IMG/VR virus record: IMGVR_UViG_3300035698_005503
Location: 1-59,129 of that record
DNA: 59,129 bases
Origin: a virus
Strand: one strand, 5' to 3'
Made by a program: the position numbers and the translations under genes. The notes under the pieces are model-generated. The model ran no database searches and was not told the DNA's origin. It was given only the letters and a program-made list of their open reading frames with translations. Below, one piece after another: positions 10,425-14,968 of the stretch; positions within the stretch are counted from its first letter, which is position 1; each line of letters opens with the position of its first letter.

Positions 10425-10906
10425 CACCCAAAACCTGTTGGCTCTATTCGATGTAAGATATAATACTTCTTTACTTCCATAGTTATTTCTTCAACAGAAT
10501 AAATCTTTCCTATTGGGTCATACACCTTCCCGTCTATGTCAAAGGCAATACAATGACCCACACCACATGACTCACCCGTGATCAGACCACGCATACCTAT
10601 ACACATATGATTCAGCCTATAGGTGGCATATGGATATGTGTATATTGGACGCGGCTTAGATTCAGGATCACTTGTAATGAATGGGTAAGCTGTAAGAGTA
10701 ACTAGATAATGATTAAGTACGTAACATACGTCAATGATTTCCTCCATGTGTATGCTTCTGAACTGGCGGTGGTCATCGAACTGGGGCCACATTATTTCCA
10801 TTCCGTCGTGCCCTATCATACCAGCTAATATATCAGGCTCTATGCCTAACATCATAGATGCACTATACAGAACGCACTGAGGTTTGGGTGCTTTAAGGAG
10901 CTTCAT
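10418..10906 (-). CDS. Papain-like cysteine peptidase family protein
   Basis: About 162 residues, starting at the ATG at 10906 with AGGTG ahead of it. The order of a papain/C39-like cysteine peptidase is visible: KPQCVLYSASMML near the N-terminus supplies Gln and the nucleophile Cys at the head of a helix, GHCIAFDIDGKVYDPIGK near residue 125 supplies the His strand, and the Asp of YDP completes the triad. The protein is short and lacks a signal or membrane segment, so it would act in the cytosol. A host-takeover or maturation role is possible but unproven; a transglutaminase-like fold is the alternative. Confidence 0.6.
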   Translation of the reverse strand: MKLLKAPKPQCVLYSASMMLGIEPDILAGMIGHDGMEIMWPQFDDHRQFRSIHMEEIIDVCYVLNHYLVTLTAYPFITSDPESKPRPIYTYPYATYRLNHMCIGMRGLITGESCGVGHCIAFDIDGKVYDPIGKIYSVEEITMEVKKYYILHRIEPTGFGCL

Positions 10907-11255
10907 GGTAATCACCTACAGGAGTATCACCTGTTGATTTCTGTAGCGTTCGCATCTCTACTGCATTCCCCTCATTTCTTGCGGCATCAATACCGTACCA
11001 CATCCCATTAGAGACACCTAAATCAATATAGACGACAGTTTTCTTGGCTACAGTACGCCATGCCAAACCTGCCTTAATACCAAGTTCCCTTTCCTCAAGG
11101 ATATCGTCATTAAGGACACCCTCTTGAGTGTACAGCAAGTGACTTGCCATAGGTGACTCACCTCTGAGTAAGCAGTCACGAACACAAGCACGGGCATATT
11201 TGACGTTAGCTTCAACGTCCCCAGCATATGGGCTTTCAAGGATTACTAAAATCAT
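10893..11255 (-). CDS. DUF4406/DUF7768-like nucleoside 2-deoxyribosyltransferase-fold protein
   Basis: About 120 residues; the ATG at 11255 has GAGGG at a proper distance. It matches the common phage family with a nucleoside 2-deoxyribosyltransferase-type fold: LVILESPYAGDVEANVKYAR opens like the SPY motif, SPMASHLLYTQ follows, then EERELGIKAGL, a hydrophobic strand (TVVYIDLGVSNGMWYGI) and AARNEGN. The Glu of EERE and the S-x-GM-x-x-I segment are where the catalytic residues of the fold lie. It may salvage or remodel nucleosides, fitting the dNTP-supply theme with the kinase gene. Substrate unknown. Confidence 0.7.
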   Translation of the reverse strand: MILVILESPYAGDVEANVKYARACVRDCLLRGESPMASHLLYTQEGVLNDDILEERELGIKAGLAWRTVAKKTVVYIDLGVSNGMWYGIDAARNEGNAVEMRTLQKSTGDTPVGDYHEAP

Positions 11256-11659
11256 ATACATACCCTCTTAGTAAGTAAGAACCATAGTCTCTTGAAGAAG
11301 CCCATGCTTCTTATACTCATAATATCCAAGTTCAAAGTAATAATATTCTCTGCTTGTTTAACCATTATTTGGTTTTGATTTCTAAATGCCTCGAAAGGTA
11401 GTCCAAGTATCTTTTGTGCATCTTTGCACATACCTAAGCATACATAGCCACCATCGCTCGATACGAATTCTTCTAATTCAACTAACTCTATAGCAGTTGT
11501 CGCTTCCTCGAAGAGTATATCCCCAAAATGATCCATCTTTTTGTTATAATATTCTGGTTGTATTGTGTAGCTCATGCTATTAGGATTTGAAATCTTAATA
11601 AAACCATCTTTGTGTTCAACGTCGATAAATGTGATGCCTGTGACAACTCGCTTTTTCAT
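11252..11659 (-). CDS. Hypothetical protein
   Basis: A 135-residue protein without a recognised domain. It begins KKRVVTGITFIDVEHKDG, beta-rich, and ends with a basic aromatic helix (FFKRLWFLLTKRVCI) that could sit on the membrane surface. The middle holds GGYVCLGMCKDAQKILGLP. It overlaps both neighbours by 4-8 nt within the segment that also encodes the DUF3326 and AdoMetDC-like proteins, so it may belong to the same functional set, but that is only proximity. Confidence 0.6.
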   Translation of the reverse strand: MKKRVVTGITFIDVEHKDGFIKISNPNSMSYTIQPEYYNKKMDHFGDILFEEATTAIELVELEEFVSSDGGYVCLGMCKDAQKILGLPFEAFRNQNQIMVKQAENIITLNLDIMSIRSMGFFKRLWFLLTKRVCI

Positions 11660-11838
11660 GATTTACCTCTGCAATCAGAACACCCAGAACATTTAATCCC
11701 ATTAGGTAGAACCCTGTAGCCTGAGCAAAGAACTTCCTTAGAATCATCAGCTACCTGCTTAATGAGTTCCCTTAGTGCCTTAGACCCTTTAACTACAGTA
11801 TACCCTTCTCTTTGTAAGATTTCTGTGACCTCATTCAT
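11656..11838 (-). CDS. Small Cys-rich protein
   Basis: A 60-residue protein ending in IKCSGCSDCRGKS, with one more Cys in EVLCSGYRVLPNG. The C-x2-C-x2-C cluster at the extreme C-terminus could bind zinc or an iron-sulfur centre together with the upstream Cys. The N-terminal half is helical (NEVTEILQREGYTVVKGSKA). It lies directly behind and overlaps the DUF3326 gene by 4 nt. Confidence 0.6.
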   Translation of the reverse strand: MNEVTEILQREGYTVVKGSKALRELIKQVADDSKEVLCSGYRVLPNGIKCSGCSDCRGKS

Positions 11839-12833
11839 GATTCACTCCGGTATCTCACAGACTCAAAGGTAACTCCAGCGGCCAAGCAGGAAACAATCCC
11901 AGCCGCTTCGAGATAGTTCTCGACATATAAAATCCTATTATCATGATAAGATAAGACAGTTCTATTTTCCCTAACTGCTATTATCGGAATCCCTGCTTCC
12001 AAACAAGCTATGTGCGGACGTCCCACACAACCTGTTGGCGTTATCAGTGCCGACACAGTGGCCCTGCCCATACCACCCCCGAAAAGAAGCACACGTGGGG
12101 CACGATGCAGGCCTTTGAGTATACAATGAATATAACAGCTTGAACACACCTCAGCCGCCTTGCGGGGATCAACAACCTCGTTATACAGGATTGTGAATAG
12201 CTTTTTATTTGCTTTTGTAGACATAGATTCAATGGGTGCATGGGCCACAGGTTTGTCAAGTTGTGAGGCTATGTCACGCGATACTATTGCCTCAATTCCA
12301 CCCCATGGATTTGTTGAATTTATTGGACTGCGGAAATATGCTAGTGCAGCATTCTCTGAAACTTGAATTGGGGATGCCACAGCCAATGCATCAAACGAAT
12401 AAGGACGAACCTGCTCACATAATGAAGTGATTCCACTGGCTTCCCCAGTAGCTACCCCATCTTCAACCCATCCAGTCATCACCAATGGTTCATTCAGTAC
12501 AACTATATCATAATTTCCACCGATGGTAGCTCTGGCGGCGTTGATCGCATTCTCCGTCTCTGGCTTGAGCGGCGGATTCACAGCCACCAGCACCCTGTTT
12601 GATTGAATCTCTTGCAGTTCAATTCCTCCCTCAAGGAATCGGTCAAGTAGACTGCCTTCCACATATAGTGCATTTTCCGGCATCTCATTGATGTCACTGG
12701 CATTGACAACATTTGGATGTAAAATCAATTTATCACAGCATTGAGCAATCAGCTTTGCGGCAGGAGTAGCATCTCCTGCATGACCACCAATAGTGCATCC
12801 TAGACCTGTCGGAATGATAAAAGCAATATTCAT
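11835..12833 (-). CDS. DUF3326 family protein
   Basis: A 332-residue protein that I recognise as DUF3326, a family of cellular proteins (notably cyanobacteria and plant plastids) with no known reaction. Family-like blocks seen: IAFIIPTGLGCTIGGHAGDA at the N-terminus, HPNVVNASDINEMPENALYVEG near 40-60, NPWGGIEAIVSR with HAPIES near 175-205, VVDPRKAAEVCSSCYIHCIL near 220-240, and TPTGCVGRPHIACLEAGIPI with AVREN near 265-295. It is full length and intact. Its gene overlaps that of the AdoMetDC-like protein by 4 nt, implying linked function. As a phage gene it would be an auxiliary metabolic gene acquired from a host. The reaction remains unknown. Confidence 0.8.
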   Translation of the reverse strand: MNIAFIIPTGLGCTIGGHAGDATPAAKLIAQCCDKLILHPNVVNASDINEMPENALYVEGSLLDRFLEGGIELQEIQSNRVLVAVNPPLKPETENAINAARATIGGNYDIVVLNEPLVMTGWVEDGVATGEASGITSLCEQVRPYSFDALAVASPIQVSENAALAYFRSPINSTNPWGGIEAIVSRDIASQLDKPVAHAPIESMSTKANKKLFTILYNEVVDPRKAAEVCSSCYIHCILKGLHRAPRVLLFGGGMGRATVSALITPTGCVGRPHIACLEAGIPIIAVRENRTVLSYHDNRILYVENYLEAAGIVSCLAAGVTFESVRYRSES

Positions 12834-13204
12834 TTCCTGAATACCTCTACTTCTTGGACAATAATACCGTGAAAAGTTTTGATAGCGAAATCTTTAATCA
12901 TTTGGGAATTGAAATCATCACAGGAAAAGATGTTTATGTAAACATTATGTAGAACATCGAGAGTATGTATTGTAATATTGCTTACAAGAAGAAATTGAAC
13001 AGCACTACACCCCTTCCACCTATCGTCGGCGGCTTCATACTCCGTGGGCCTACCAGCATAATCCCAGAAATGAAGGTCAGCGACATCAACACCAAGTTTC
13101 TTGCAAAGTGTAACAAGGAATGCCTCGATCTTCTCCCTGTTGTCATAAGTAGTTGGGTCACAGGCATGAAGATCCAGTATCAACTCTTTTCCATATGTAT
13201 TCAT
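12830..13204 (-). CDS. S-adenosylmethionine decarboxylase-like protein (SpeD family)
   Basis: A 124-residue protein of the prokaryotic AdoMet decarboxylase length and layout. The processing region reads GCSAVQFLLVSNITIHTLD (about 65-83), aligning with the ESH-x-x-IHT segment of SpeD/SpeH. The Ser that becomes the pyruvoyl group (S75) and IHT are kept, but the preceding Glu is Val and the next His is Asn. NIFSCDD near 91-97 aligns with the FTCG segment that carries a catalytic Cys. The family makes decarboxylated AdoMet for spermidine; diverged homologues can decarboxylate ornithine or arginine. So polyamine-related chemistry is likely, and the substrate open. It overlaps DUF3326 by ATGA. Confidence 0.65.
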   Translation of the reverse strand: MNTYGKELILDLHACDPTTYDNREKIEAFLVTLCKKLGVDVADLHFWDYAGRPTEYEAADDRWKGCSAVQFLLVSNITIHTLDVLHNVYINIFSCDDFNSQMIKDFAIKTFHGIIVQEVEVFRK

Positions 13205-13392
13205 TTGATTCCAGTGCCCTTATTGGATGCCTCGATAATGGCCATCAATTCTTCATAGGTCATGCGGCCTTGTCGTTCTTGACAGATAGGGTCGTTGCAA
13301 GTACAATGAGGCTTGCTTTGCTTTCCATGACAGCGATGTTCCCAATGCCCACGCACATCACAACCACCACATATATGTGTGAGTTTACTCAC
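13201..13392 (-). CDS. Small zinc-binding protein
   Basis: A 63-residue protein starting at GTG (13392), chosen because GGAG precedes it and the GTG overlaps the upstream TGA. It is rich in Cys and His: CGGCDVRGHWEHRCHG followed by HCTCNDPICQERQG, enough ligands for one or two zinc ions. The C-terminus is a short acidic helix (TYEELMAIIEASN). Likely a nucleic-acid or protein adaptor; no family named. Confidence 0.6.
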   Translation of the reverse strand: MSKLTHICGGCDVRGHWEHRCHGKQSKPHCTCNDPICQERQGRMTYEELMAIIEASNKGTGIK

Positions 13393-14273: not shown

Positions 14274-14474
14274 TTATCTTCCTACAAGTGAAAGCAGTCT
14301 TGCTGAGTTAGGATTACTTCTAATGGGTGAGTGATCCGACATACTATGATTAACAATATAATGTAACTCCTGTAGGATTTCTCTTTCCTTTTCAGTCCAC
14401 CTACCATTCTGAATCATATATGCTGGGCAATCTACCCGAGTATGTCCATGTATTCCACACCACCCACATTTCAT
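14274..14474 (-). CDS. CCHC zinc-knuckle protein
   Basis: A 66-residue protein beginning KCGWCGIHGHTRVDCPAY, an exact C-x2-C-x4-H-x4-C zinc knuckle, the retroviral nucleocapsid type that binds single-stranded nucleic acid. The remainder is helical (WTEKEREILQELHYIVNH). A strong AGGAGG site and an ATGA overlap with the NYN gene set its start. It probably binds RNA or ssDNA, perhaps with the NYN protein encoded just upstream. Confidence 0.7.
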   Translation of the reverse strand: MKCGWCGIHGHTRVDCPAYMIQNGRWTEKEREILQELHYIVNHSMSDHSPIRSNPNSARLLSLVGR

Positions 14475-14968
14475 AAGTCTACCTCCTGGACACCCACCAA
14501 TAGCGACGGTGGAATCTCAATACTTTTCGAGGCAATGTTGATTAAATCACTTGAGATATTACAGGCAAGAATGACTACTTCAATGCCCCTCTCAACCAGC
14601 AGTTCAACAAGTGGTGCGAAATCACCATCTGCAGAACCCAATACAACCATGTCAAGTCTCTCTGATGCTCTGATAATATCTACAGCAATACCGACATCCC
14701 AATCTGCCTTAGCTGTCTGCCCACCCTCAGGATTTTCATAAATTTTGACATCCTTGTACTTTGCTCGGAATCCTATGTGTTGCAGAGCACAGATGAACTT
14801 CTGTGCCTGTTTCCCATGTTGAGCACCATATGCTACAGCGGTAGTGATTTCGCCCAAGTCAGCAACAAAGTCCCAAAAGGCTTTGTAATCGAGCTTCCTA
14901 CTGTCATACTTTGTCTGTAGCGTGTAGTACAGATTAGACACGTCCATGAAAAGACCAATTCGTTTCAT
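14471..14968 (-). CDS. NYN/LabA-like PIN-fold ribonuclease
   Basis: A 165-residue NYN-domain protein (DUF88/LabA-like, PIN-like fold). Acidic residues expected at the metal site are visible: GLFMDVSNLY (D9, N12), KADWDVGIAVDI (about 88-97) and VLGSADGDFAPLVELL (D114, D116). The closing VVILACNISSDLINIAS is also typical. Family members are metal-dependent RNases or RNA-binding proteins. It is the full length for a single domain. Overlaps with a zinc-knuckle protein and a VRR-NUC nuclease suggest a nucleic-acid processing cluster. Confidence 0.85.
   Translation of the reverse strand: MKRIGLFMDVSNLYYTLQTKYDSRKLDYKAFWDFVADLGEITTAVAYGAQHGKQAQKFICALQHIGFRAKYKDVKIYENPEGGQTAKADWDVGIAVDIIRASERLDMVVLGSADGDFAPLVELLVERGIEVVILACNISSDLINIASKSIEIPPSLLVGVQEVDL

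Follow-up and report, generated by a model that had tools for sequence, protein, structure and literature searches.

A SpeD-like protein and a protein of the uncharacterized family DUF3326, encoded by neighboring genes of a phage, probably form a two-enzyme auxiliary metabolic module which phages took from bacteria and which produces an amine. The SpeD-like protein would be a pyruvoyl-dependent decarboxylase of an amino acid (not of AdoMet) and the DUF3326 protein its partner enzyme. The same linkage is seen in bacteria of many phyla and in dozens of unrelated phages, and SpeD is repeatedly replaced in these loci by decarboxylases of unrelated families. Of all the observations, these repeated exchanges point most strongly to decarboxylation as the function that goes with DUF3326.

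A gene pair in a phage genome

The window, i.e., the whole stretch of DNA analyzed here, corresponds to a linear virus contig from IMG/VR (59,129 bases). Both open reading frames of the pair are present on its minus strand, with the following features:

12830..13204, minus strand: predicted SpeD-like (AdoMet_dc fold) pyruvoyl-type decarboxylase, 124 aa (PF02675; AlphaFold2 model compared with T. maritima AdoMetDC)
11835..12833, minus strand: DUF3326 protein, short form, 332 aa (PF11805; alignments; comparison of long and short forms)
12830..12833, minus strand: ATGA overlap (4 nt) of the SpeD-like and DUF3326 genes (coordinates)
12980..12982, minus strand: codon of Ser75, predicted pyruvoyl-forming residue, equivalent to T. 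maritima Ser63 (profile alignment to 1vr7/1tlu; 102/102 relatives)
12965..12967, minus strand: codon of His80, equivalent to T. maritima His68 (profile alignment; invariant in 102 relatives)
12920..12922, minus strand: codon of Cys95, equivalent to T. maritima Cys83 (profile alignment; 100/102 relatives)

Terminase large subunit, portal, DNA polymerase and helicase are encoded on the same record, and the pair is located inside the phage genome between phage genes, as is expected of a phage auxiliary metabolic gene. Compared with terminases of GenBank phages, that of the window was at best about 25% identical over most of its length. The initial annotation had pointed to the 4-nt overlap between the two genes. 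This overlap exists, but it is not special: the flanking genes at 13201-13392 and 11656-11838 each overlap the pair by 4 nt as well, and we set the overlap aside as a sign of specific coupling. Neither of these small flanking ORFs recurred beside the pair in an initial comparison of ten related viral loci, and the core of the module therefore consists of two genes. A DUF7768 protein and an NYN-domain nuclease-like protein are also encoded nearby (10896-11261 and 14474-14968, respectively, both on the minus strand).

The DUF3326 protein

The initial description of this protein as a full-length DUF3326 member was correct: it matched PF11805 with E=1.3e-64 and 218.7 bits (cut-off 25), and residues 5-326 of 332 covered model positions 4-336 of 337. 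An alignment of 32 diverse DUF3326 sequences contained 35 invariant columns. Most chromosomal copies are of a long form with an N-terminal extension of roughly 90 aa, and viral sequences, which lack this extension, were mostly found in a short-form clade (tree support 100). The predicted structure (pLDDT 82) is that of an alpha/beta protein with no confident match among solved structures, and neither PDB profile searches nor a Pfam tally over 32 members detected a relative. A Rossmann/GT-B-like fold was considered, but matches in PDB and BFVD were weak and the active-site loops were modeled with low confidence, and no fold was assigned. A remote relationship to LOR/SDH (AgrE-like ornithine cyclodeaminase, TIGR00300) seemed attractive on visual inspection but was rejected because its hhalign score (18.2) was below those of column-shuffled controls (up to 23.8).

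DUF3326 is spread over many bacterial phyla, including cyanobacteria. It was absent from 50,697 GenBank phage records and, with the chromosomal long form as query, from PLSDB plasmids. The family is rarely named in the open literature searched, where no SpeD paper names it; a cyanobacterial gene cluster lists DUF3326 with ferredoxin 3 and DUF650, and a plant study also names it.

Linkage of SpeD and DUF3326 in viruses

A DUF3326 profile search of IMG/VR identified 66 loci, 53 of which had SpeD within the fetched flank; viral and bacterial SpeD tallies are from stop-to-stop searches, and the gene caller used for neighborhoods missed some SpeD genes. SpeD was immediately upstream of DUF3326, mostly with an overlap or a gap within 3 nt, in 41 viral loci in which the gene caller resolved both genes. 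The reverse scan, starting from SpeD, detected DUF3326 in 33 of 42 viral loci, and nine contigs had no DUF3326 anywhere. When flanks of non-redundant viral loci were compared, other genes were common to 41 of 1035 locus pairs. Since the flanks are mostly unrelated, shared phage ancestry fails to explain adjacency of the two genes.

Other families occupied the position of SpeD in several viral loci. A gene of the phosphatidylserine decarboxylase (PSD) family was found there in seven of them (PF02666; E 5.5e-17 in L065-L070 and 2.9e-26 in L058), and the L058 gene overlapped DUF3326 by 4 nt. The genes of the L065-L070 group retained the PSD-like YHxxHSP and GS motifs. In three further loci (L059, L073 and L074), the gene belonged to the ornithine cyclodeaminase/mu-crystallin (OCD) family, with archaeal alanine dehydrogenase as the closest match. 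Three contigs (L029, L037 and L072) had SpeD nowhere, and no recognized partner was found near their DUF3326. An agmatinase-like gene of the arginase family and a second, divergent SpeD-like gene were observed within 4 kb of PSD-type DUF3326 loci (L065, 9426-10373, minus strand; L066, 5078-5488, minus strand).

Partner replacement in bacteria and archaea

The 80 DUF3326 loci examined here came from assemblies of bacteria and archaea and included prophage-like ones. The same SpeD type was found beside DUF3326 in 30 loci and an NspC-like PLP decarboxylase in its place in 27; as loci were chosen by DUF3326 similarity, these fractions describe close relatives of the window protein, with cyanobacterial and plant members outside the sample. 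A genomic link between DUF3326 and SpeD elsewhere had been proposed initially as the decisive test of a functional module, and it was thus found both here and in IMG/VR contigs.

SpeD and NspC-like partners were mutually exclusive in the first 35 genomes examined (largely draft metagenome assemblies), with two exceptions: G002 has a second, phage-like copy of the module (L113, L177), and G001 has a canonical, unlinked nspC in the host. Other SpeD-module genomes had no NspC-like gene above background, and NspC-type genomes had only canonical SpeD. In G002, a member of Neomarinimicrobiota, an NspC-DUF3326 pair occurs together with a SpeD-DUF3326 pair that has phage-like genes nearby (L177 and L113). 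In genome G299, a SpeD-type pair is accompanied by a DUF3326 gene that stands alone and by an NspC-like gene that is not linked to it. Solitary short-form DUF3326 genes near the viral clade were also detected in 14 chromosomal loci (L111, L112, L114-L124 and L126), mostly in Planctomycetota but also in other phyla.

Partner type changed at least 12 times on the DUF3326 tree, or 7 times if only branches with support of at least 95 were counted, compared to about 30 changes for shuffled labels. Distances of SpeD and DUF3326 were correlated over all loci (Mantel r 0.36 vs a permutation maximum of 0.15) but uncorrelated within phages (r 0.09). As the correlation vanishes inside the phage clade, strict co-transfer of the two genes is not claimed.

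The best-matching family of the NspC-like partner was nspC, at about 250-330 bits, and its best solved relatives were carboxynorspermidine decarboxylases (245 bits). This relationship would fit a special case of the amino acid decarboxylase module, in which DUF3326 would take the place of carboxyspermidine dehydrogenase without being homologous to it, and the SpeD, NspC-like or PSD-like protein would be the decarboxylase that yields spermidine or an analogue. Location of the NspC-like gene beside DUF3326 in the genomes checked, except G299/G300, is consistent with such a pathway. However, DUF3326 had neither detectable homology to dehydrogenases nor a confident fold match, and NspC-like proteins scored under the equivalog cut-off of 409 bits, and we consider this special case rather unlikely.

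Operon contexts in hosts

Both decarboxylase types swap with each other behind the same upstream genes. This was observed in GspS-(SpeD or NspC)-DUF3326 operons, where GspS is glutathionylspermidine-synthase-like, and in PtuA-PtuB-(SpeD or NspC)-DUF3326 operons, which start with Septu genes. In Rhodospirillales, the module forms the tail of GspS/PspA/DUF350 envelope clusters. PtuA, with PtuB, was directly upstream of the decarboxylase-DUF3326 pair in 10 chromosomal loci from several phyla, including SpeD-type (L110, L125, L130, L145, L162, L168 and L170, with the PtuB frame of L162 left unresolved by the gene caller) and NspC-type loci (L178, L179 and L182). This link to PtuAB defense is real as gene order, and an extended Septu operon is possible. 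Neither such an extension of PtuAB nor the SpeD-DUF3326 pair is mentioned in the open literature searched, and PADLOC contains zero models for the SpeD-like or DUF3326 protein.

Class III nucleotide cyclase (Guanylate_cyc) plus TPR genes also directly precede the SpeD-DUF3326 pair in L155 (3873-5339) and L176 (135-1676), and a DUF3326 gene that lacks a decarboxylase in L183 (7069-9711).

These neighborhoods raise the question of a role in defense or counter-defense, in which PtuA-PtuB and similar systems would be controlled by, or depend on, a small molecule produced by the pair, with phage copies serving as antidote or decoy against host systems that contain the module themselves. The ten Septu-linked loci, the cyclase-TPR loci and wide carriage of the module by phages are in line with this idea. 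On the other hand, most chromosomal copies lie outside defense contexts and neither protein has a PADLOC model, and we consider this role improbable.

Features of the SpeD-like protein

The SpeD-like protein is a member of the AdoMet_dc superfamily (PF02675, E=8.7e-14, 52.2 bits vs the Pfam gathering cut-off of 25). Its AlphaFold2 model (pLDDT 93.9) aligned with T. maritima AdoMetDC over 111 residues (Z 14.8, rmsd 2.0-2.1), the matches at this Z score being 1tmi/1vr7/1tlu, and the fold is thus that of AdoMetDC. Ser63, His68 and Cys83 of the T. maritima enzyme are essential for self-processing (PMC10407285). All three have equivalents in the window protein, in the motif V74-S75-N76-I-T-I-H80 and in C95. 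In an alignment of 102 subfamily sequences, some of them duplicates from a single locus, the Ser75 and His80 positions were invariant and the Cys95 position was conserved in 100. The claim of a SpeD-like protein with its pyruvoyl Ser kept was therefore upheld, and the protein is predicted to self-cleave at Ser75 and generate a pyruvoyl cofactor. The initial annotation had also read a change of ESH to VSN; the motif is as it was read, but it comprises two different changes. Asn76 agrees with the commonest residue after Ser in the subfamily (65/102), whereas Val74 is unusual, as Thr precedes Ser in 95/102. The subfamily signature QF(I/L)xTSNI(T/V)(I/V)HTLD...YxN(I/V)FSC replaces canonical ESHxxIHTWPE.

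Several features place the window protein apart from AdoMetDC. Its match to the TIGR03330 equivalog (31.9 bits) was far under the cut-off of 75.65, and in the same set of genomes PF02675 scores were 45-57 bits for module SpeDs vs 89-155 for canonical SpeDs. A conserved Pro in the WPE region separates AdoMetDC from ADC (PMC10407285); at this position, located in our own alignment, the window protein has HTLD without Pro, and Asp or Glu occupies the aligned column in 93/102 relatives. Four residues, Gln, Thr, Phe and Tyr, are diagnostic of pyruvoyl ornithine decarboxylases (SpeDC) (PMC10407285). We located these positions via a probable SpeDC from Leptospira that adjoins canonical SpeD and SpeE. 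The module subfamily has Gln, Thr and Tyr but not Phe, and the window protein retains Gln70 and Tyr89, with Val74 for Thr and Thr81 for Phe, and thus does not carry the full set of four. In the SpeD tree, which has few labeled references and long branches, module SpeDs grouped with SpeDC away from canonical SpeD (split support 91/99). The window SpeD appears to resemble the neofunctionalized, ornithine-decarboxylase side of the family rather than AdoMetDC. SpeD, another SpeD-like gene and SpeE follow one another in Leptospira (L202) and in Microcystis phage MaAM05 (L204), as has been reported for SpeD plus SpeDC.

Distribution of SpeE was also assessed. In SpeD-module genomes such as G003, G004, G006, G007 and G018, a strong SpeE adjoined canonical SpeD and not the module, and PF01564 (SpeE) had zero matches in seven SpeD-module genomes, largely draft assemblies (G002, G005, G008, G009, G010, G021 and G022). 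SpeE was absent from all 15 viral records tested, including that of the window, a record that may be a fragment and whose host could supply the enzyme; the usual partner of AdoMetDC is thus missing from the record.

A true AdoMetDC, whose decarboxylated AdoMet would be consumed by DUF3326 (e.g., as an unrecognized aminopropyltransferase acting on an unknown acceptor), has to be weighed against these features. Fold and catalytic residues are retained, and GspS/DUF350 clusters have been linked to AdoMetDC (PMC11237479). Phage phiN3 AdoMetDC complements E. coli speD (PMC9992855), and because it falls, on a long branch and in a loose grouping, on the module/SpeDC side of the SpeD tree, AdoMetDC activity is still compatible with the phylogeny. 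However, the Pro of the WPE motif and the Glu at P1 are missing, and NspC-like, PSD-family and OCD-family partners, none of which would make decarboxylated AdoMet, pair equally with DUF3326. We regard this alternative as distinctly improbable. That the pair consists of decayed pseudoenzymes which lost their catalytic role is hardly credible: Val74 at P1 and Asn76 do differ from canonical ESH, but conservation of Ser, His and Cys is complete or almost complete among 102 relatives, and DUF3326 has 35 invariant columns.

Proposed function of the module

Because the linkage recurs and unrelated decarboxylases replace SpeD, DUF3326 appears to work with a decarboxylase. An auxiliary metabolic module is the best reading of the phage copy, and such a module of DUF3326 and a decarboxylase, which had been suggested initially, has strong support from two observations: the genes are linked in bacteria as well as in unrelated phages, and SpeD has been replaced repeatedly. 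In the proposed mechanism, the SpeD-like protein, after processing at Ser75, would decarboxylate an amino acid rather than AdoMet to give an amine, and its likeliest substrate would be L-ornithine or a basic amino acid resembling ornithine or a carboxy-polyamine. An ornithine-like amino acid is favored by ODC-type residues and the cyclodeaminase-family alternative, and a carboxy-polyamine by the relationship to NspC. A link to polyamines or related amines is supported indirectly by the ODC-type residues, NspC-like replacement and GspS neighbors, and, as these operons also contain GspS, further conjugation of the amine in hosts seems possible.

DUF3326 would be a dedicated partner enzyme that catalyzes a neighboring step of the same small-molecule pathway. 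As the decarboxylase can be exchanged and, in three loci, an enzyme of the OCD/alanine dehydrogenase family replaces it, DUF3326 more likely acts before it and would supply or activate the amino acid. Phages presumably acquired the pair from bacteria, where it occurs in GspS/PspA/DUF350 envelope operons and behind PtuA-PtuB, and may thereby increase the level of a polyamine-like amine in infected cells. We more tentatively propose, as a possibility on the unlikely side, that DUF3326 makes the amino acid for interchangeable SpeD-, NspC- and PSD-type decarboxylases, with the product directed to GspS conjugation or to an extended PtuAB operon, and that phages tap or counter this pathway.

The recurrent decarboxylase partner is the first clear functional context for DUF3326, and its pairing with decarboxylases that belong to three unrelated folds provides a testable enzyme hypothesis for this family. 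In addition, the SpeD-DUF3326 module extends the set of known phage polyamine genes.

Comparison with known systems

Class 1b AdoMetDC (SpeD, PF02675; T. maritima 1tlu) is similar to the window protein in fold (Z 14.8), Ser/His/Cys processing and catalytic residues and small size; however, the window protein lacks the WPE motif, P1 Glu and a SpeE partner, scores far under the TIGR03330 cut-off and has DUF3326 as its partner. Bacterial and phage pyruvoyl ODC/ADC (SpeDC/SpeDA; PMC10407285, PMC9992855) are comparable in that module SpeDs probably lie on the SpeDC side of the tree and have Gln and Tyr, with Thr in most relatives. They differ at the Phe position, which is Thr in the window protein (HTLD), at the Thr position, which is Val, and in linkage to DUF3326. 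NspC (TIGR01047; 3n29, 9eaf) has an unrelated PLP fold, is absent from the window phage and has a dehydrogenase (CASDH) rather than DUF3326 as its known partner, but a divergent relative takes the position of SpeD beside DUF3326 in 27 chromosomal loci.

GspS/DUF350/DUF1190/PspA envelope-stress clusters (PMC11237479) combine polyamine-metabolism genes, including AdoMet decarboxylase and spermine synthase, with a GspS-like ATP-grasp protein. That paper does not name DUF3326, and phage copies have none of these neighbors, whereas clusters of this kind end with the module in Rhodospirillales. Finally, Septu in its known form, PtuA-PtuB (also effectors of retron Ec78), consists of two genes and is absent near the window pair, but in 10 chromosomal loci it directly precedes the module. 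Operons of the PtuA-PtuB-decarboxylase-DUF3326 type point to a possible role of an amine metabolite in some Septu-type defense systems.
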